A DNA stretch of 64,000 nt from Noviherbaspirillum massiliense JC206 (lineage in GTDB: Bacteria > Pseudomonadota > Gammaproteobacteria > Burkholderiales > Burkholderiaceae_D). The DNA lies in NCBI RefSeq assembly GCF_000312045.1, contig NZ_HE978634.1, positions 1,916,098 through 1,980,097 on the forward strand, in the 5' to 3' direction. Under the pieces are notes generated by a model. It was not told the origin of the DNA and searched no databases. It saw nothing but the letters and a program-made list of their open reading frames with translations. Position 1 is the first letter of the stretch. Every line of letters starts with the position of its first letter. Shown here piece by piece: positions 50,045 to 59,412 of this stretch. The position numbers and the translations under genes are program-made.

Positions 50045-52312
50045 TCAGTGACGCATGGCGGTAATTACACCGCCAACGTCGCGAATGATCATCAACGCTT
50101 TCTGCAACTGGGCGGTGGATGCAATCTCCGCCGTGAAGGCCATGCGCGCCTGCCCTCTCGAACTCTGCGTACTGACACCGACGACATTGATTTTTTCACG
50201 CGAGAAAATTTCGGAAATGTCGCGCAACAGGCCCTGCCGGTCGTTTGCCAGAATGAATATATCTACGGGATACACTGTCTCGCCACCCAGCGCCCCCCAA
50301 GTCGTCTGGATCACACGCTCATGGGCCTTGAGCCGCATCTGGGCAAGATTCTTGCAGCCGACCCGGTGGATCGACACGCCCTTTCCGCGCGTGACGAAGC
50401 CGACGATTTCGTCCGGCGGCGCGGGCTTGCAGCAGCGCGCGAGCTGCGTCAGCAAGCCCTCCGTGCCCACGACCAGCACGCCCGGCCGTGCACCATGCGT
50501 CACGCTGGAGGCGCGACTCTTGTTGGTAATGAGTTCTTCATCAATCGGCGCAGCTTTGGCTGCCCCTTTCACTTCGTCGTCGCTGTGCAGAGCTTGCTCG
50601 ACCTGGCGCAAGCTGAAAGTTTCCTTGCCCAGGGCCAGCAACAATTCGTCGAGCTTGGGAAAGCCCAGTTTGTGCGCGAGCTCTTCCAGGTTGACCGCCG
50701 TCTTTCCTTCACGCTGCAGAGTCTTGTCCAGCAAGGCGCGGCCGTGGGAAAGCGTTTCGCGCTGTTCAATGGCATTGAACCACGCACGCACTTTCGCCCG
50801 CGTGCGCGGACTGGCCACATACCCCGGACTGAGCCAGTCGCGCGAAGGCCCGACAGCTACCGACGCGCCACTGCCCCTTGCGGTGATGATTTCTACCGTC
50901 TGCCCGTTCTTGAGGACAGTATTGAGCGGCACCATCACGCCATCGACGCGGGCGCCACGGCAGCGGTGACCAATATCGGTGTGGAGGTAGTAAGCGAAAT
51001 CGATGGGCGTGGCGCCCGCCGGCAATTCAATCACGCGCGCTTGCGGCGTCAGGACATAGATGCGGTCATCCAGAGCAGCGGACTTGAGCTTTTCCACCCA
51101 TTCCCGCTGGATGTCTTCCTGGCCCACGACCGCATCTGCGATCTCGCTGCGCCAGGCAAGCAGTTGCCGCAACCAGGCGATCTTTTCATCGTATTTTTGC
51201 GCGGCGAAATTCGAACCGCCCGTTTCCTTGTAGCGCCAGTGTGCCGCCACGCCGTATTCGGCGAAGCGGTGCATTTCCTGGGTACGGATCTGCACTTCGA
51301 GCGCCTTGCCGTCCTCCGCCACCACCACCGTATGCAGCGACTGGTAGCCGTTCGGCTTCGGCCGCGAAATGTAATCGTCGAGCTCTTCCGGCACCGGGGT
51401 CCAGATGTCGTGCACCAGGCCGAGTACGGTGTAGCAGGTCTTGATGTCATCGACGATCACGCGAAAGGCGCGCACATCGTACAATTCGGAGAAATCGAGC
51501 GACTTGCCGCGCATCTTGTTCCAGATGCTGTAGATGTGCTTCGGCCTGCCGGTCACCTCAGCTTTGATTCCCGCAGCCGCAAGTTCCGACTTCAGGCGCG
51601 CAATCGCGGCTTCGACGAAGCCTTCGCGCTCCACCCGCTTTTCCTCGAGCATCTTCGCGATCCGCTTGTAGGTTGGCGGATCGATGAAGCGGAAGGCGAG
51701 GTCCTCCAGCTCCCATTTCAGCTGCCACATGCCGAGCCGATTCGCCAGCGGCGCATACAAGTCGAGCGTGATCTTTCCGTACTGGTAGGTGCGCTCGTTT
51801 TCCAGCCGCAGCTCCGCGAAATAGCGCAGCGTCGTGATGCGCGACGCGAGCCGGACCAGCACGACGCGCATGTCGGTAGCCATGGCCAGCAGCATCTTGC
51901 GCAGCGTCTCGAGCTGTTCCGCCGCCTGTTGCGACGCATTCTTGCCGCGAGCCACTTCCTTCTGCCCGAAGGCCTGCTCATGCAGTCGCATCAACTGGCG
52001 AATGCCTATGACCAGGTCGGCAATCTCCTTGCCAAAACGAGCCTCCATGTTTTCGCCGGCCTTGGGGTCGAGCACCGGCAGTTCGACCAGCAGGCCGGCG
52101 ATGCGGGTATCAGCATCGACATTGAGCTGGGCAAGGACGGTCGCCGTGCCTTTCGCATATTCGAAGGCATCCTGACCGTTGCCGGCCGGCCGGCCTTCGT
52201 AAATCGGCTTGATGTATGCAAGCGCATCGATCACCCGCGTGCCGTCCTCGGCGCTCAGGCCGGAGGACAGTTGCGTATGCGTTTCAGTTTGCGCTGTAGC
52301 CGTTGAAACCAT
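50045..52312 (-). CDS. relA: (p)ppGpp synthetase RelA
   Basis: 755 residues from MVSTATAQTET. Long RelA/SpoT layout: an inactive hydrolase-like domain (the HD motif is replaced by LLVELPVLDPKAG), the synthetase domain with FRVIVDDIKTCYTVLGLVHD, RPKPNGYQSLHTVV and EVQIRTQEMHRFAEYGVAAH, then TGS (VIELPAGATPIDFAYYLHTD), helical/zinc-finger-like and ACT domains. The lost HD motif marks it as RelA, not SpoT: it makes the alarmone on ribosomes when amino acids run out. The frame extends 38 codons upstream into ridA and is not family-like. It starts 7 nt after the ridA stop. Confidence 0.95.
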   Translation of the reverse strand: MVSTATAQTETHTQLSSGLSAEDGTRVIDALAYIKPIYEGRPAGNGQDAFEYAKGTATVLAQLNVDADTRIAGLLVELPVLDPKAGENMEARFGKEIADLVIGIRQLMRLHEQAFGQKEVARGKNASQQAAEQLETLRKMLLAMATDMRVVLVRLASRITTLRYFAELRLENERTYQYGKITLDLYAPLANRLGMWQLKWELEDLAFRFIDPPTYKRIAKMLEEKRVEREGFVEAAIARLKSELAAAGIKAEVTGRPKHIYSIWNKMRGKSLDFSELYDVRAFRVIVDDIKTCYTVLGLVHDIWTPVPEELDDYISRPKPNGYQSLHTVVVAEDGKALEVQIRTQEMHRFAEYGVAAHWRYKETGGSNFAAQKYDEKIAWLRQLLAWRSEIADAVVGQEDIQREWVEKLKSAALDDRIYVLTPQARVIELPAGATPIDFAYYLHTDIGHRCRGARVDGVMVPLNTVLKNGQTVEIITARGSGASVAVGPSRDWLSPGYVASPRTRAKVRAWFNAIEQRETLSHGRALLDKTLQREGKTAVNLEELAHKLGFPKLDELLLALGKETFSLRQVEQALHSDDEVKGAAKAAPIDEELITNKSRASSVTHGARPGVLVVGTEGLLTQLARCCKPAPPDEIVGFVTRGKGVSIHRVGCKNLAQMRLKAHERVIQTTWGALGGETVYPVDIFILANDRQGLLRDISEIFSREKINVVGVSTQSSRGQARMAFTAEIASTAQLQKALMIIRDVGGVITAMRH

Positions 52313-52319
52313 GAATTTC

Positions 52320-52685
52320 TTATTTCTGGGCTGCGGTAACGACCATCTCAACCAGCCATTCCGGCTTAGCGAGCTTCGCTTCGACGGTTGCACGAGGCGG
52401 CGCATTGCCGTCTGCCACCCATTCATTCCATACCGCGTTCATCGCGGGGAAGTCCTTCATGTCCGCCAGGTAGATCTGGCACATCAGGATGCAGCTCTTG
52501 TCACTGCCTGCCTCTGTCAGCAGGCGGTCGATATGTCCGAGCACCTCCCGCGTCTGGCCGGCGATATCCTGCTTCGCGTCTTCGGCAATCTGCCCCGCAA
52601 GATAGACGACTCCATTGTGGATCGCCACTTCGGACAGCGTTTTCCCCACATGCAAGCGCCGAATATTCTTCATCTTCAGATCCAT
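52320..52685 (-). CDS. RidA-family protein
   Basis: 121 residues of the YjgF/YER057c/UK114 family: RRLHVGKTLSEVAIHNGVVY, AGQIAEDAKQDIAGQTREVL and NAPPRATVEAKLAKPEWLVE. The Arg in PPRA that binds the carboxylate of imine substrates is present, so 2-aminoacrylate deaminase activity is plausible. It is cotranscribed with relA (7 nt apart). Confidence 0.92.
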   Translation of the reverse strand: MDLKMKNIRRLHVGKTLSEVAIHNGVVYLAGQIAEDAKQDIAGQTREVLGHIDRLLTEAGSDKSCILMCQIYLADMKDFPAMNAVWNEWVADGNAPPRATVEAKLAKPEWLVEMVVTAAQK

Positions 52686-52709
52686 AAACCCCAGCTATCG
52701 ATCAATCCA

Positions 52710-53606
52710 TCAACCAAGCAAAAAATCCCGCGCGAGCGCAATCTGGTCGGCATGCATGAATGTCGGCGCATGCCCCACGTCAGGAATTTCCACCAGCTTC
52801 GCTTTCGGCCCTCGCCGCGTCATCTCCTGCGCGGCTTCATGCGTCAGCAGGTCCGACGCCGCACCGCGCACCACCAGCGTCGGACAGGCAATCGCATCAT
52901 AAGTCGCCCACAGCGCAGCTTCCGACTGCCGCGCCATCTCTGGCGTCACCGACTTGAAGGGCACGGCAAGCCCGAGGTCGTAATGCTTGATCCACTTCCC
53001 GTCCTTATCCTGGCGCAACACGTCCCGTGCCAGCTTGTGCCATTCTTCCTCAGTGTGTCTGCCGAAGGGCCGCGAAATTTCCCGGATGTACTGCAATCCT
53101 TCATCGAAGCTTGCGAACCGCACTTCCTGGCCGATGTAGTCGCCGATGCGTGCCAGCGCGCCGGGATTCAATGCCGGTCCGACGTCATTGAGGACCAGCT
53201 TCTTCACCGGCGTATCGGGCAGCGCGGCCAGCCCCATTCCGATCAAGCCACCCATCGAGGTACCGAACCAGTGGACAGTGTCTGCCTCCAGCCGCGCCAG
53301 CAAGGTCACCATGTCGCTCACATACTGCGGCACCTGGTAATGGCGCGGGTCGCGCAACCGGCCGGAGCGCCCTCGTCCGACGACGTCGGGACAGACTACC
53401 CGGTAGTCACGGCACAATTCCTGCGCCAGGCTGTCGAAATCATCCGAAACCCGTGTCACGCCATGCACGCACATCAGCACCTTCGAATTGCGCGGATCGC
53501 CCCACTGCTTGTACACCATGGTATGCAGCCCGGCCGGAGAAAGGCATTGAACGGACTTGGTCTGGACTTCGCTCATTTCCTGGTTTCCCGCTTTCGGAAG
53601 TGACAT
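52710..53606 (-). CDS. Alpha/beta hydrolase
   Basis: 298 residues from MSLPKAGNQEMSEVQ, or 288 from the second Met at 53576; ribosome sites are poor for both. The domain shows VLMCVHGVTRVSDDFDSLAQ (oxyanion), CPDVVGRGRSG, the nucleophile elbow WFGTSMGGLIGMGL (GxSxG), the Asp strand CPTLVVRGAASDLL and the His in IPDVGHAPTFMH. Substrate unknown; it is divergent from the 3-hydroxybutyrate dehydrogenase gene across a palindromic element. Possibly an esterase or ketone-body-linked hydrolase. Confidence 0.88.
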   Translation of the reverse strand: MSLPKAGNQEMSEVQTKSVQCLSPAGLHTMVYKQWGDPRNSKVLMCVHGVTRVSDDFDSLAQELCRDYRVVCPDVVGRGRSGRLRDPRHYQVPQYVSDMVTLLARLEADTVHWFGTSMGGLIGMGLAALPDTPVKKLVLNDVGPALNPGALARIGDYIGQEVRFASFDEGLQYIREISRPFGRHTEEEWHKLARDVLRQDKDGKWIKHYDLGLAVPFKSVTPEMARQSEAALWATYDAIACPTLVVRGAASDLLTHEAAQEMTRRGPKAKLVEIPDVGHAPTFMHADQIALARDFLLG

Positions 53607-53664
53607 TTTACTGTTCGTTACGCTTAAAATCCCGTGCAGGCAAAAATCGCCTTCAGGAAACCCA

Positions 53665-53825
53665 GAGCGTCTAACAAAATGTGCAAGCCAACAGGTTTGC
53701 GGTCGCTGCAAGCGTAATGCGGAGGTTCCGCAGGATGCACGTCACAAGTCAAATGTGCCACCGCGACCAGTAAGCCCGACAGGCAAAGAGATGCAACGCC
53801 GCCAGCAACATTTTGTTAGACGCTC
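53665..53825. repeat. 161-bp palindromic element with attC-like ends
   Basis: The two ends are perfect 18-bp inverted repeats: gagcgtctaacaaaatgt at 53665-53682 and its complement at 53808-53825. They contain GTCTAAC and GTTAGAC, the RYYYAAC / GTTRRRY core boxes of integron attC sites. A small 5-bp hairpin (GCGGA-TCCGC) lies in the middle, and GGTCGC / GCGACC can pair inside. The right end is 20 nt before the dehydrogenase ATG. A related shorter element is at 57420-57493. No integrase is present in the window. Confidence 0.75.
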
Positions 53826-53844
53826 TTAACTCGCAGAGGACATC

Positions 53845-54639
53845 ATGCAAGCTACTACGCTCAAAGGCAAGACGGCATTGGTGACGGGCTCGACTTCCGG
53901 CATCGGCTTGGGCATGGCGAAAGCGTTCGCGGCCCAAGGCAGCAACCTGATCTTCAACGGCTTCGGCGACGCCCGGGAAATCGAAGCGCTGCAAACCAGC
54001 GTCAAACAAGAATATGGTGTTCAGGTGGCATATCACAATGCCGATATGTCCAAACCATCTGAAATCGAAGCGATGATGCGTTTTGCCGAAGAAAAATTCG
54101 GAGGCGTTGACATTCTCGTCAACAATGCCGGCATTCAGTATGTAGCCAACGTCGAGGATTTTCCCGTCGAAAAATGGGATGCGATCATCGCCATCAACCT
54201 GAGCTCGGCCTTCCATACCACCCGACTTGCCTTGCCCTCGATGAAGCGGAAGAACTGGGGCCGCATCATCAACATTGCGTCGGCCCACGGACTTGTAGGT
54301 TCAGTGCAGAAATCAGCCTATGTTGCCGCCAAGCACGGCATTGTCGGCTTGACCAAAGTCACGGCGCTGGAAAACGCTCACACCGGCATCACCTGCAATG
54401 CGATCTGCCCCGGCTGGGTCCTCACACCCCTGGTGCAGAAGCAGGTAGATGCGCGCGCCGCCCAGCAAGGCATTTCCGTGGAAGAGGCGAAGAAAGGCCT
54501 GGTCGCGGAAAAGCAGCCTTCCGGCGAATTCGTCACCCCCGAGCAGCTGGCGGGACTAGCTGTGTTTCTCTGCAGCGATGCCGCTAGTCAGGTGCGTGGC
54601 GCAGCGTGGAGCATGGACGGAGGCTGGACTGCACAATGA
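53845..54639 (+). CDS. bdhA: 3-hydroxybutyrate dehydrogenase
   Basis: 264-residue classical SDR: NAD site TGSTSGIGLGMAKAF, NNAGIQYV, catalytic Ser in INIASAHGLVGS and YVAAKHG (YxxxK). The sequence VGSVQKSAYVAAKHG, NAICPGWVLTPLVQKQ and the WSMDGGWTAQ end match 3-hydroxybutyrate dehydrogenases. It oxidises (R)-3-hydroxybutyrate to acetoacetate, the substrate of the ScoAB transferase encoded nearby. AGAGGA ribosome site. The last bases overlap the next gene. Confidence 0.95.
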   Translation: MQATTLKGKTALVTGSTSGIGLGMAKAFAAQGSNLIFNGFGDAREIEALQTSVKQEYGVQVAYHNADMSKPSEIEAMMRFAEEKFGGVDILVNNAGIQYVANVEDFPVEKWDAIIAINLSSAFHTTRLALPSMKRKNWGRIINIASAHGLVGSVQKSAYVAAKHGIVGLTKVTALENAHTGITCNAICPGWVLTPLVQKQVDARAAQQGISVEEAKKGLVAEKQPSGEFVTPEQLAGLAVFLCSDAASQVRGAAWSMDGGWTAQ

Positions 54640-55970
54640 TCGGCCGCAGCCCGACGTTGAAGATGCTGGTGCGGTCCGTGCTGTTTTCGACGGCCGCACT
54701 GCTGTTCCATGCTCCGCTCCTCGCGACCGGGCTGGGATCGCCTAAGTCCGTCCCGGTGACCGTTCCGGCCGACATGAAAGCGAAGCCTTTCAACGTCCCG
54801 CGGTCACTCAAGATACCGCAAGGGGCAAGCATCCGGGTGTTTGCCCGGGTCCCGGGAGCACGCTTCATGGCGCTTGCTCCCAACGGCGACTTGCTTGTAT
54901 CGAATCCAGGCGCCGGCACGGTGACCCTTTTGCGCCCCGGAGACAAGGGCACTCCCCAGCGCCACACCTTCGCCTCCGGCCTGGATCATCCTCATGACAT
55001 CGTCTTCCATGTGCTGGGCGACACGACTTATGTCTATACCGCAGAATCGAACCGCATCGTTCGCGCGCCTTACCAGCCAGGCCAGACCAGAATCGGAAAG
55101 CTGCAGGTGGTGGTCGACCATCTTCCCGATTCCTCCAGTCCGGGGCTGAAAGGCAGCTATGGCCATCAGCTCAAGAACATCGCCCTGCGCGGCAATAAGC
55201 TGTATTTGTCGATCGCTTCCAGCTGCAATGCCTGCCTGTCCGATACCGAATCAGATCCTATTCGCAATGCGATTTATGAATACGACGCCAATGGCGGCAA
55301 CCGGCGGCTGTTCGCGCGCGGCTTGCGCAATGCGGAAGGCCTGGCATTCAAGCCGGGAACCGATGAGCTCTGGGCGGTGGTGAACAATCGGGACAACATT
55401 GCCTATCCGTTTCATAAGGACTGGGATGGCGATGGCAGCGACGACTATGGCAAGGTCATGCAGAGCTATGTCGACGGGCACCCGCCGGATTTGCTCGTCA
55501 AGGTAAAAGATGGCGGCAATTACGGCTGGCCCTTCTGCAACTCCAATCCGGACAAGGGCGTGGACCACATGCCGTATGACCGGGATGTGCAATTCAATGC
55601 GGATGGCAACAGGCTGGATTGCGACAAGATCGATCGCGCAACGAAAGGCATTGAGCCGCATTCGGCGCCGCTCGGCCTGAGCTTCCTGCAGGATTCCGGC
55701 CTGCCTGCTCCCTACCGCAATGCGCTTGCCACCGCGCTGCATGGATGCTGGAACTGCAGCAAGCTCAACGGCCACAAGGTGGTGCTGTATCCGTTCAAGG
55801 GCGACGGCAGCCTGGGCGCGGCGGTCGATCTGGTCTCCGGCTGGGTCACTGACGAGAAGAACAGGGAGCGCTGGGGCCGCCCGGTCGACGTCATCCCGGA
55901 TGGCAAAGGCGGCCTGTACATCTCGGATGATTATTCCGGAACAATCTACCTGCTGAACGGCCTTCAATGA
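54636..55970 (+). CDS. Sorbosone/glucose-dehydrogenase-like beta-propeller protein, secreted
   Basis: 444 residues starting at an ATG that overlaps the previous stop (ATGA). A signal peptide ends about LLATGLG. The rest is a six-bladed propeller of the soluble glucose / L-sorbosone dehydrogenase family: FMALAPNGDLLVSNPGAGTV, YGHQLKNIALRGNKLYLSIA, NAEGLAFKPGTDELWAVVNN, GGNYGWPFCNS. PQQ ligands cannot be confirmed by eye. Four Cys in CNACLSD and CWNCSKL may form disulfides. Its link to the dehydrogenase upstream is unusual and unexplained. Confidence 0.8.
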   Translation: MIGRSPTLKMLVRSVLFSTAALLFHAPLLATGLGSPKSVPVTVPADMKAKPFNVPRSLKIPQGASIRVFARVPGARFMALAPNGDLLVSNPGAGTVTLLRPGDKGTPQRHTFASGLDHPHDIVFHVLGDTTYVYTAESNRIVRAPYQPGQTRIGKLQVVVDHLPDSSSPGLKGSYGHQLKNIALRGNKLYLSIASSCNACLSDTESDPIRNAIYEYDANGGNRRLFARGLRNAEGLAFKPGTDELWAVVNNRDNIAYPFHKDWDGDGSDDYGKVMQSYVDGHPPDLLVKVKDGGNYGWPFCNSNPDKGVDHMPYDRDVQFNADGNRLDCDKIDRATKGIEPHSAPLGLSFLQDSGLPAPYRNALATALHGCWNCSKLNGHKVVLYPFKGDGSLGAAVDLVSGWVTDEKNRERWGRPVDVIPDGKGGLYISDDYSGTIYLLNGLQ

Positions 55971-55974
55971 AAAA

Positions 55975-55999
55975 CGGCGCCTGTCATTGACAGGCGCCG
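55975..55999 (-). terminator. Terminator between the propeller gene and scoB
   Basis: A perfect 25-nt palindrome (12-bp arms, centre T) between convergent genes. The minus-strand transcript ends with a U-run (A at 55971-55974 on plus), so it terminates scoAB; the plus strand lacks a good U-run. Confidence 0.75.
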
Positions 56000-56027
56000 C
56001 TCGGCTTGCGTATGACGCGATGCGGTC

Positions 56028-56681
56028 TTACTGTACGCCGCTCATGTCAAGCTCGACGCCGGTTTTTTCCGCAATTTCCTGCTTGCTCACGCCGGGCGCC
56101 AGTTCCACCAGCTTCAATCCCTTCTGCGTGACATCGATCACGCCGAGATCGGTGATGATGCGGTTGACCACGCCCACGCCCGTCAGGGGCAGGTTGCACT
56201 CCTTCAGGATCTTGTGCGAAGTGGTGCCATCCTTGGCCTTCGCCACATGCTCCATCAGGACCACAACACGGCCGACGCCAGCCACCAGGTCCATCGCGCC
56301 ACCCATGCCCTTCACCATTTTCCCCGGGATCATCCAGTTCGCCAGGTCGCCCTTCTCGCTGACCTGCATGGCGCCGAGGATGGCGATATTGATTTTGCCA
56401 CCGCGGATCATCGCAAAGGAATCCGCCGAGCTGAAGAACGAGGAGCCGGGCTGCGCCGTCACGGTCTGCTTGCCGGCGTTGATCAGGTCGGGATCCACTT
56501 CATCGTCGGTCGGGAAAGGTCCGATGCCGAGTAAGCCGTTCTCCGACTGCAGCCATACCTTGATATCCTTCGGCACATAGTTGGCCACCAGCGTGGGCAA
56601 GCCGATGCCGAGGTTCACATAGAAACCGTCCTGCAGTTCCTTCGCCGCGCGCGCGGCCATTTCATCACGAGTCCATGCCAT
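56028..56681 (-). CDS. scoB: 3-oxoacid CoA-transferase subunit B
   Basis: 217 residues. Catalytic Glu in [12 protein letters not shown], with [18 protein letters not shown] and [20 protein letters not shown] typical of SCOT beta subunits. With ScoA it transfers CoA from succinyl-CoA to acetoacetate. Located 14 nt after scoA. Confidence 0.95.
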
Positions 56682-56695
56682 GTCGGTTCTCCGCT

Positions 56696-57394
56696 TTATT
56701 TGGCGCGCGTGGTGCGCTGTTCGATGCGTTTTTCAGGCGTCGGGTTGACCACGATGCGGTGCACGAAAATGCCGGGCGTATGCACATCGTCGGGATCGAT
56801 TTCGCCGATTTCCACCAGCTTTTCGACTTCGGCGATCGTGACCTTGCCGGCCATCGCCACGTTCGGATTGAAGTTGCGCGCGGTCTTGCGGAAGACCAGG
56901 TTGCCGGACTTGTCGGCCATGTAAGCCTTGACCAGCGCCACATCGGCTACGATCGAGCGCTCCATGACGTATTTTTCACCGTCGAATTCGCGCACTTCCT
57001 TGCCTTCGGCGACGATCGTGCCGACACCGGTCTTGGTAAAGAAGGCCGGGATGCCGGCACCGCCGGCGCGCAGCTTTTCCGCCAGCGTGCCCTGCGGCGT
57101 GAATTCCAGTTCCAGTTCACCCGCCAGGTACTGGCGCTCGAATTCCTTGTTTTCGCCGACGTAGGACGCGATCATTTTCTTGATCTGGCGCGTCGTCAGC
57201 AATTGGCCCAGGCCGAAGCCGTCGATGCCTGCATTGTTGGAAATCGCAGTCAGGTTTTTGACGCCGGAGTCGCGCAATGCGGCGATCAGCGCCTCCGGAA
57301 TGCCGCACAGGCCGAATCCGCCGACTGCGATCTTTTGCCCGTCCTTGACCACGTCGGCCAGGGCGGTCGCGGCGTCAGGATACACTTTGTTCAT
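56696..57394 (-). CDS. scoA: 3-oxoacid CoA-transferase subunit A
   Basis: 232 residues starting [20 protein letters not shown]. The CoA-binding glycine loop is [15 protein letters not shown], followed by [15 protein letters not shown]. The start at 57394 follows GAGGGG with about 7-nt spacing. The frame stays open 33 codons further, through the palindromic element at 57420-57493, but that part is not family-like. First gene of the scoAB operon; its promoter must lie in or beside the palindrome. Confidence 0.95.
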
Positions 57395-57419
57395 ATCAGT
57401 CCCCTCTTGTCCCAGAAGT

Positions 57420-57493
57420 TTGGAACGCCTAACAGAATGCCGCTGGCAGCGGTCGCGAACCTGACGGTCAGCGCATTTCGTTGGACGCTCCAA
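57420..57493. repeat. 74-bp palindromic element with attC-like ends
   Basis: Imperfect outer arms 57420-57440 and 57473-57493 carry CGCCTAAC and GTTGGACGC, which fit the RYYYAAC / GTTRRRY boxes. Inside are two short hairpins (57440-57452 and 57461-57471), giving a cross-shaped fold. The 16-base cores of its arms match those of the element at 53665-53825 at 12/16 and 13/16 positions. It lies 25 nt from scoA and 26 nt from the LuxR gene. Confidence 0.7.
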
Positions 57494-57519
57494 GTTTTTG
57501 ATACACCACCTGTCAGCAT

Positions 57520-58149
57520 ATGATGGTGGACTGCGGCATGCAATACGGTAAAAATACGCACATGATTCCTGATTCAGTGCCTGAGCCGATGGGCGAAGTC
57601 CCGGCTATCAATTTCGAGACCATCTTCCGGCATGCGCCGGTGGGTATGTGCGTATCGCGGCAGCGCGTCATTATCGCCTGCAACGAGGTACTCGCAAAAA
57701 TGTTCGGATACCGGGCAAGCGAACTGGTCGGACAGTCCTTCCGCATTCTCTACCCGACGCTCGACGAATTCGAACGTACCGGCGCCCGCATTGTTCCGAT
57801 CATGAGTGCTACCGGGCAATATTCAGACGAGCGGATCATGAAGCGGGCCAGTCAGGAGATGTTCTGGTGTCATGTCAGCGGACGGGCACTGGTGCACGAC
57901 GAGCCTCATGCCCTTGGCATCTGGACATTCGAGGACTTGAGCGAAAAGCGTCCGGTGACGGCGCAGCTTACCGCACGCGAGCGGGAAATCGCCGCCCTGC
58001 TCGTCGAGGGCAAAACCAGCAAGTTGATCGCCCGCGAGATCGGACTGAGCCCGCGTACCGTCGAAATGCATCGGGCGCGCCTGATGCGGAAGTTTTCTGC
58101 CGCCACTTCCGGCGAGCTGGTGCATCGACTGGTGGCAGGTGCCGCCTGA
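57520..58149 (+). CDS. PAS-LuxR transcriptional regulator
   Basis: 209 residues: a PAS domain at about 30-130 (FETIFRHAPVGMCVSRQRVI, CNEVLAKMFGYRASELVGQS) and a C-terminal LuxR helix-turn-helix (LTAREREIAALLVEGKTSKL, IAREIGLSPRTVEMHRARLM). There is no receiver domain, so it is a one-component sensor. Earlier or later Met starts (for example 57562) are possible. Divergent from scoAB across the palindromic element, so it could regulate it. Confidence 0.9.
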   Translation: MMVDCGMQYGKNTHMIPDSVPEPMGEVPAINFETIFRHAPVGMCVSRQRVIIACNEVLAKMFGYRASELVGQSFRILYPTLDEFERTGARIVPIMSATGQYSDERIMKRASQEMFWCHVSGRALVHDEPHALGIWTFEDLSEKRPVTAQLTAREREIAALLVEGKTSKLIAREIGLSPRTVEMHRARLMRKFSAATSGELVHRLVAGAA

Positions 58150-58174
58150 GCAAAGACGGCAGGAAAGGCTGGTT

Positions 58175-58639
58175 CTACTCCTGCGGTTCGGCCAGCAGCT
58201 TGCGTATCCTGTCTGGCAGAGGCGCCGACTTTTCTTTCGGGAAATTAACCCATACCACCTTGGCTCCGCCAGACGCGGCGAGAATGTGCGGCTCATCTAT
58301 GCGCCGGATTTCCTGGATCGTTTCGAAGCTGGATCTGCCGGGTGGTCCGGCATAGGTCAACACCTCGATCTCTCCGGGGTATTTCAACTGCTTGATGAAA
58401 GTGCAATGGGTGTTGATGATGACCGGCCCTTCGCCAGACGGATCCGGGGCGCAGCCGACCTCGCAAAACCATTCGACACGGGCAGTTTCGAGATAGCGGA
58501 AATAGACGGTGTTGTTGACATGGCCCATTGCATCCATGTCGCCCCAACGGATAGGGATGCGGATGGAATGAACCAGTCTCCTGCCGGCAGCTTGATTGTC
58601 CACGCTGTGTTCGGCCGGCGTGGCGGAGAACGCTCTCAT
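58175..58639 (-). CDS. Acyl-CoA thioesterase, hot-dog fold (4HBT family)
   Basis: 154 residues with IRIPIRWGDMDAMGHVNNTV and YFRYLETARVEWF, the active-site Asp and helix of the YbgC/4-hydroxybenzoyl-CoA thioesterase group. Its ATG overlaps the stop of the SDR gene (ATGA), so the two are translationally coupled. Hydrolyses a CoA thioester; substrate unknown. Confidence 0.9.
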   Translation of the reverse strand: MRAFSATPAEHSVDNQAAGRRLVHSIRIPIRWGDMDAMGHVNNTVYFRYLETARVEWFCEVGCAPDPSGEGPVIINTHCTFIKQLKYPGEIEVLTYAGPPGRSSFETIQEIRRIDEPHILAASGGAKVVWVNFPKEKSAPLPDRIRKLLAEPQE

Positions 58640-59412
58640 TGGGCCGCCATGCCATCGTCCGCACTGACAATGGCGCCGTTGATGAAGCGCGACTCATCCG
58701 ATGCAAGCAAGAGCAGCAAGCCGTCGAGATCTTCCGGTTTGCCAAGGCGCTGGCGTGGCAGCATGTTGATCAGGGCCTGGCCGCGTTCGCTTTCGAAATA
58801 ATCGGCATTGATTTCCGTCCTGATATAGCCGGGGCAGATAGCATTGACATTGATGCCGTAACGCCCCCATTCCGCCGCCATGGCTTTGGTCATGTGGATG
58901 ACCGCTGCCTTGCTCACGCAGTAGATGCCGATCTGCGGCAGCACGCGCAAGCCAGCGGTGGAGGCGATATTGATGATACGGTGCTGCTTTGACGGATCGC
59001 CCTTGGCGCGCGCAATCATGCGCTTGGCTGCCTCCTGGGCAACGAAGAACGCGCCGCGCTGGTTGGTGTCGATCACATAGGCGTAATCTTCGGGCGTCAC
59101 ATCGACGAGGCGCTGGGTTGTGGACACGCCCGAATTGTTGACCAGGATATCGATCGGCCCTGCCTCGGTTTCGGCGTGGGCAATTGCCGACTTGATGCTG
59201 CCGTAGTCGGTCACGTCAAGCGCGACGACATGCGCTGCGCCGCCTTCGGCTTCGATTTCGGCACGCAACTCCTTGAGGCGCTCGGCCCGGCGTGCCGCCA
59301 GGACGACCTGCGCCCCGGCCTGTGCCAGCACCTTGGCAAAACGAGCACCGAGGCCACTGGATGCGCCGGTAATCAGCGCGGTCTTTCCATCAAAATTGAA
59401 TTCGATCCCCAC
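58636..59412 (-). CDS. SDR-family oxidoreductase
   Basis: 258 residues from a GTG with GGAGG about 5 nt upstream. NAD(P) motif TGASSGLGARFAKVLA, VNNSGVSTTQRLVDV, INIASTAGLRVLPQIG, and YCVSKAAVIH (YxxxK). The C-terminus FINGAIVSADDGMAAQ is typical of classical SDRs. Coupled to the thioesterase, so it likely works on a CoA ester or fatty acid derivative. Confidence 0.9.
   Translation of the reverse strand: MGIEFNFDGKTALITGASSGLGARFAKVLAQAGAQVVLAARRAERLKELRAEIEAEGGAAHVVALDVTDYGSIKSAIAHAETEAGPIDILVNNSGVSTTQRLVDVTPEDYAYVIDTNQRGAFFVAQEAAKRMIARAKGDPSKQHRIINIASTAGLRVLPQIGIYCVSKAAVIHMTKAMAAEWGRYGINVNAICPGYIRTEINADYFESERGQALINMLPRQRLGKPEDLDGLLLLLASDESRFINGAIVSADDGMAAQ

Follow-up and report, generated by a model that had tools for sequence, protein, structure and literature searches.

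Correia elements (CREE, also called nemis) influence gene expression in Neisseria. They carry a 26-bp Correia repeat at both ends and a directional conserved core, and their features include RNase III processing, an IHF site and promoters at the ends. In a 2009 paper, the Correia repeat has the pattern TATAG[CT]GGATTAA... and the way in which CREE move is given as undetermined (PMC2649163). These elements are called unique to Neisseria in a 2016 paper (PMC5039591). The BOX repeats of Streptococcus pneumoniae are described as having a modular boxA-B-C layout and ends that resemble ISSpn2 (PMC3049150).

The palindrome analysed here lies upstream of bdhA in Noviherbaspirillum massiliense JC206, within a stretch of 64,000 nucleotides (the window). 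An earlier note had offered three readings: an orphan integron attC site, one copy of a palindromic repeat family with dispersed members, or an mRNA control hairpin. The attC sites are defined by RYYYAAC and GTTRRRY boxes and by a bottom-strand hairpin with extrahelical bases and an unpaired spacer near the boxes. The window palindrome is very probably a non-autonomous MITE with ends of IS5-family type, belonging to a structured repeat family related to Correia elements.

The palindrome upstream of bdhA

The palindrome is a perfect inverted repeat formed by positions 53664-53682 (AGAGCGTCTAACAAAATGT) and 53808-53826. The two arms are 19 nt long, one base more at each end than the 18 earlier claimed, 100% complementary and 125 nt apart. 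The element sits between a divergent hydrolase-like gene and bdhA, both neighbours being chromosomal genes, and ends 18 nt before the ATG of bdhA. The dehydrogenase named there by the earlier note is confirmed by two models. The features of the window are:

52710..53575, minus strand: divergent alpha/beta-hydrolase-like gene, end set at CAT (the listed ORF extends to 53711); only below-cut-off matches
53604..53631, strand unassigned: block CATTTTACTGTTCGTTACGCTTAAAATC, which is conserved ahead of bdhA in the congeners and may be a promoter/operator
53664..53826, plus strand: whole MITE, copy A, 163 bp; from arms, genome copies and covariance model R1 (E=0.006, 27.2 bits, a weak score)
53664..53682, plus strand: left terminal inverted repeat; first 18 nt equal the left end of the IS in L348
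53683..53700, plus strand: small subterminal hairpin GCAAGCC-AACA-GGTTTGC, common to genomic copies B, D and E
53709..53781, plus strand: non-family segment in place of the 5' half of the core and the apical hairpin, from the alignment of copies
53782..53807, plus strand: surviving 3' half of the conserved core (GGCAAAGAGATGCAACGCCGCCAGCA), from the comparison of copies
53808..53826, minus strand: right terminal inverted repeat, from arm pairing and IS-end comparison
53845..54639, plus strand: bdhA, 3-hydroxybutyrate dehydrogenase gene; NF009093 and TIGR01963 over cut-offs
57422..57491, minus strand: second, short derivative (copy I) of 70 nt, with degenerate arms and the core deleted; matches query positions 1-48 at E=3e-6

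Folded as RNA, the palindrome reaches -68.4 kcal/mol (z -5.93) and its bottom strand, folded as DNA, -40.1 kcal/mol (z -5.73); 0 of 200 shuffles equalled either value. A promoter/terminator consensus scan was empty, with no sigma-70-like site in 53560-53870.

The bdhA gene is matched at E<=1e-80 in 14 of the 15 genomes of the genus, i.e. in 13 congeners, a second and more distant match in G013 (L366) being excluded. The element is absent at bdhA in all 13 congeners, where the best upstream match to the arm has 6-9 mismatches of 18. The block CATTTTACTGTTCGTTCCGCTTAAAATC was found by its pattern in 10 of the 13 and is visible in the alignment of the remaining ones. It lies 42-53 nt ahead of the gene match in these 10 congeners and 214 nt in the window genome, and thus the element entered between the block and the ribosome-binding region. 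The block may be a promoter, and an effect of the hairpin on the bdhA mRNA is a candidate consequence.

Copies in the window genome

A search with the window stretch found related places on contig C1, several with identical arms. Copies B, D and E are complete, with about 120-125 bp, copies C and G keep the arms around other interiors, and copies F and H are decayed. Copy D is flanked by TTA/TTA. The site that the earlier note had hinted at (57420) is real and corresponds to copy I. A 3-oxoacid CoA-transferase subunit A gene lies near it; both window copies adjoin ketone-body genes. In copy A, the left half of the core is replaced by 73 unrelated bases and the arms are still perfect.

The covariance model R1 was built from the family of the window only, without Neisseria. 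It gave 13 matches at E<=1 in the window genome; one being the reverse strand of copy B, they represent 12 places, six of these at E<=0.001, and copy C is absent from them. The window element has no transposase of its own and has multiple dispersed copies, as expected for a MITE. Among the readings of the earlier note, the dispersed palindromic repeat family was the right one; copies occur in the same genome, in congeners and in the order.

The structured core

With copy B as query, matches were obtained in 9 of the 15 genomes of the genus (the window genome included) and in 53 of 195 genomes of the family. The alignment A3 contains 34 copies with usable ends, picked from 56 loci; incomplete copies were left out, so that it favours good structures. 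On it a structure of 37 pairs was drawn by hand from the RNAalifold fold and the GTAC apical hairpin. Double-sided changes occur in 28 of the 37 pairs. The cells are paired in 88.0% of cases (72.9% when shuffled), those with double changes number 163, against 47.6 in shuffled and 21-49 in slid controls, and the covariation score is 0.402, against 0.053-0.078 for the slid structure. The outer arms vary between lineages yet remain complementary.

The motifs of the core are arranged as GGCAAGGCG..GACGCAGACAGTAC-loop-GTACGGCAAGG..GCAACGCCG. Its unpaired conserved stretches (CGCAGACA and GGCAAGG) suggest that the folded strand may be recognised. In the inner stems, G-U cells outnumber A-C cells (49 vs 24 in A3, 179 vs 72 in A4, 148 vs 56 in A5), and the outer stem shows no G-U excess (18 vs 20). 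This suggests that one strand folds; the cells are non-independent and mutation bias could also explain the excess.

The model R1 matched 119 of 300 sampled genomes, in 67 of 135 genera, of the order (Burkholderiales in the sense that includes Neisseriaceae, judging by named records that carry identical arms). Copy numbers per genome are lower bounds, because at most 13 candidates were scored in each. In 10 chosen genomes, 8 to 67 matches were counted at E<=0.01. A sample of the phylum gave matches in 39 of 398 genomes, of which 15 belong to the order, 15 to the rest of the class and 9 to the rest of the phylum. Rfam yielded only chance-level matches in window positions 52000-59000 and none at E<=1 in 15 loci with family copies.

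Some copies have particular arrangements. A different class of the phylum has a variant of its own, ..GGCAAGGCGCGTCC..CAATGG.. (L369, L370 and L377, in the small genomes G715, G673 and G786), and each genome contains several copies of it. In the genus g6, L094, L097 and others have GCGGGCCTGAAAAAT arms and stand in tandem at a spacing of about 128 bp. One copy (L047, G010) is enclosed by an inverted repeat of greater length, GCGGTCCCGAACAGTATTT, which may be an older palindrome or a terminator.

Probable partner insertion sequences and target duplications

The congener G001 carries an IS5-family IS of 902 bp (L348), with two overlapping frames and TAA on both sides. The ends of this IS are AGAGCGTCTAACAAAATGG and AGAGCGTCTAACTAAATGG, and the window arm is identical to one of them at 18 of 18 bp and to the other at 17 of 18. 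The IS of the L348 type (NF033580, IS5 family) have the terminal repeat and the TNA target in common with the MITE. They measure 860-930 bp with their transposase, and the interior of the MITE is unrelated to them.

Searches with DDE_Tnp_1 in 10 genomes returned 30 loci, only one of which, L283 of genome G269, had matching ends. This IS of 870 bp has the ends of the MITE L114 of the same genome. Its frames match PF13340, PF01609 and the IS5-family model NF033580, the latter below the full-length cut-off because the gene is split. Among 399 genomes of the order, 12 contain homologues at E<=1e-20, several with GAG..CTAACA ends. Ends of this type delimit L283/L305, L306, L307, L308, L309 and L310, L336 having one weaker end, and L315 and L316 end in GAG..TTTCAAAA. 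Among 17 homologue loci, both ends were located in L305-L310, L315 and L316 and, imperfectly, in L311, one end in L312, L313, L314 and L320, and none in L317, L318, L319 and L321. In the last set of 30 transposase loci, both ends fit in L348 and in L336/L351 (one IS) and one end in L326 and L332/L341; L344 has the other end type and the remainder misfit. Matching ends are a minority of this set, the other IS5-type elements of the genus ending differently.

Identical TNA trinucleotides flank 7 of the 10 IS with both ends resolved (L307-L310, L315, L316 and L348; not L305, L306 and L336). The MITE were evaluated with 201 non-redundant elements, 104 of them GAG-like, of which 27 have TNA on both sides and 77 do not. 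Matching TNA duplications occur in 22 of these 27, against a shuffle mean of 10.4, and 0 of 10,000 shuffles gave as many. The window copy has CCA and TTA as flanks, without target duplication.

In the window genome, NF033580 is not matched at E<=1e-10, nor is PF01609 at E<=0.001, and for this reason the partner transposase is inferred from the relative. In plasmids, megablast with the L283 IS gave just 3 partial matches, covered to 39% at most.

A second end type of the genus, AGAGCGTGTTATGAACT, pairs the IS L344 with composite MITE of about 270 bp (L059, L061 and L067). These are the 3 of 12 loci with GCAGCCCC-type composite repeats in which both ends agree with the repeat of L344 but for 1 mismatch at most. 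L102, in the window genome, is within 3-4 mismatches, L103 matches at one end only and 7 loci at none; the control gave 1 match in 40,800 positions, over two strands. L102 (G000:C1:2806336-2806436), L059, L061 and L067 present the composite layout of about 270 bp, with two opposite core modules between AGAG..TGTTATGAACT ends.

A mechanism can be proposed on these comparisons. The 18-19-bp ends would serve as terminal inverted repeats for an IS5-family transposase (NCBIfam NF033580 type), whose two overlapping frames contain DUF4096 and DDE domains. Acting in trans, the transposase would cut such elements and paste them into TNA targets. The window copy would have been inserted between the conserved block and the start of bdhA after the species split from the sequenced congeners, and part of its core would have been lost later. 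No such transposase was found in the window genome, and the window element is therefore presumably immobile at present.

Alternative explanations

The reading as an orphan attC site draws on real features. The boxes GTCTAAC and GTTAGAC, pointed out by the earlier note, are both inside the 19-bp arms, at the ends of the folded element, and agree with RYYYAAC and GTTRRRY; two integron integrases of the genome (L025, G000:C1:1047-1991, and L024, G000:C2:288667-289608) score over the TIGR02249 cut-off. Yet this origin is highly improbable. The pairing extends 5 bp past the boxes (AGAGC/GCTCT), which has no reason in an attC, and the arms of many relatives lack the two boxes. The best DNA fold of the bottom strand, a check that the earlier note had proposed, has an outer stem of 18 uninterrupted bp without extrahelical bases, the bulges being internal. 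The arms coincide with the end of an IS5-family IS, related copies show TNA duplications, and no cassette lies beside the element, which is some 1.97 Mb distant from the integrase of its contig. On these grounds the attC reading was rejected, the boxes being part of the transposon end. The earlier note had also made the question depend on further copies and on an integrase; both exist in the genome, but neither makes the palindrome an attC site and the test does not discriminate. As far as the evidence goes, the integrases are a coincidence of the window genome. A crude scan of the genome for attC sites was empty, even beside the integrases; its criteria do not admit elements as long as the window palindrome, and it speaks for neither side. 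A third, partial integron integrase with internal stops is located at G000:C2:271905-272588 (L026), and small ORFs, possibly cassettes, adjoin L025 right at the beginning of contig C1. Perfect arms that contain RYYYAAC/GTTRRRY boxes can mimic attC sites.

If the element were not a transposon but a cis-acting RNA leader under selection for the control of bdhA and of the CoA-transferase gene by the second copy, this would account for the location of both window copies by ketone-body genes, for the strong hairpin placed between the conserved upstream block and the start codon, and for the predominance of G-U over A-C in the inner stems of relatives. Such a leader is nevertheless unlikely as the origin of the element, which is missing at bdhA in all the congeners compared, has copies elsewhere in the genome and in the order, ends as an IS does and matched no Rfam family; the G-U excess comes from non-independent cells, does not extend to the outer stem and may reflect mutation bias. 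A co-opted regulatory role of the window element is possible. Dispersed intergenic palindromes with conserved bulges also recall REP/BIME-type repeats, which depend on a RAYT (Y1) transposase for their movement. Against this stand the terminal repeats with their TNA duplications and the IS5 partner, which are non-REP features, and the size of 70-163 bp; this origin is very improbable too. The evidence favours the MITE with IS5-family-type ends.

Relation to Correia elements and possible link to BOX repeats

The core of this MITE family is homologous to that of Correia elements. R1 matches canonical CREE of genome G240 over the full length (e.g. L371, E=4.7e-13), and the ends of the L371-type copies fit the published Correia pattern TATAG[CT]GGATTAAATTTAAATCAGGAC. 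Independently of the core pattern, blastn of an Oxalobacteraceae-type copy (L076) against plasmid records matched two N. gonorrhoeae records (85% covered, 77.8% identity, E=1e-4), at 13 places per record; phage records gave no match to L076. The exact core pattern occurs in at least 111 stretches of public genomes, about two being expected by chance. Among the matches listed are N. gonorrhoeae, N. sicca, N. bergeri and other Neisseria, as well as Chromobacterium, Vogesella, Cupriavidus, Janthinobacterium, Accumulibacter, Thiobacillus, Avibacterium and three Streptococcus records.

The family of the window shares with CREE a non-coding palindrome of 100-160 bp, short derivatives of about 70 bp, a TA-containing target and a directional structured core. 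On the other hand, its terminal repeat is GAGCGTCTAACAAAATG and not the Correia TATAG[CT]GGATTAA, and it duplicates TNA, whereas CREE duplicate TA. In the window copy, the core has lost its 5' half and only the 3' half is left (R1 match at E=0.006). The window arms do not carry the 26-bp Correia repeat as given in PMC2649163, where the mobiliser of CREE is left undetermined, whereas the family of the window has a probable IS5-type partner. In the Neisseriaceae-like genome G481, an IS5-type element ends in CTGTCGACATTCAAATTT and not in Correia repeats, and a Correia mobiliser was not found there. Searches of the open-access literature, which leaves out most subscription papers, produced no description of Correia-like elements in genera other than Neisseria. 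As far as the searches show, these elements are new, and so is an IS5-type transposase as the likely mobiliser of the branch of the window.

The BOX repeats of S. pneumoniae are also similar, in that the primer BOXA1R (CTACGGCAAGGCGACGCTGACG) resembles the core of the window's family. Over 193 elements, the mean local score is 11.6 (6.9 when shuffled), and 35 of the 193 score >=14, against 0 of the shuffled ones. Streptococcus copies match R1 (L236, E=4e-8; L193, E=6e-6), scores that are partly selected, since the loci were fetched by the core pattern. L240, which we take to be the most BOX-like locus for its resemblance to the pneumococcal repeat, did not reach E=0.001 with R1. Core-bearing palindromes were observed in Avibacterium, Streptococcus and a Clostridia MAG (L188, L193, L236, L240 and L169). 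The link to BOX, suggested by primer similarity and by pattern-chosen Streptococcus loci, is the least secure.

At least two IS-matched end types, AGAGCGTCTAACAAAATG and AGAGCGTGTTATGAACT, exist in the genus of the window. It is conceivable, at somewhat short of an even chance, that Correia elements, the Burkholderiales MITE and BOX all go back to a single structured core, about 70 nt long, which outlives any one transposase. With the same tentativeness, this core may ride between the terminal repeats of different IS, the folded core being the conserved part. In that case, IS5-type transposases would be the place to look for the Correia mobiliser, and the shared core may be part of the reason why BOX-PCR works so broadly. 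Dozens of other genera have a homologous core, and one branch has ends that match a named transposase family; this provides a concrete candidate mechanism for the movement of Correia elements, and non-pathogenic hosts are available for testing it.
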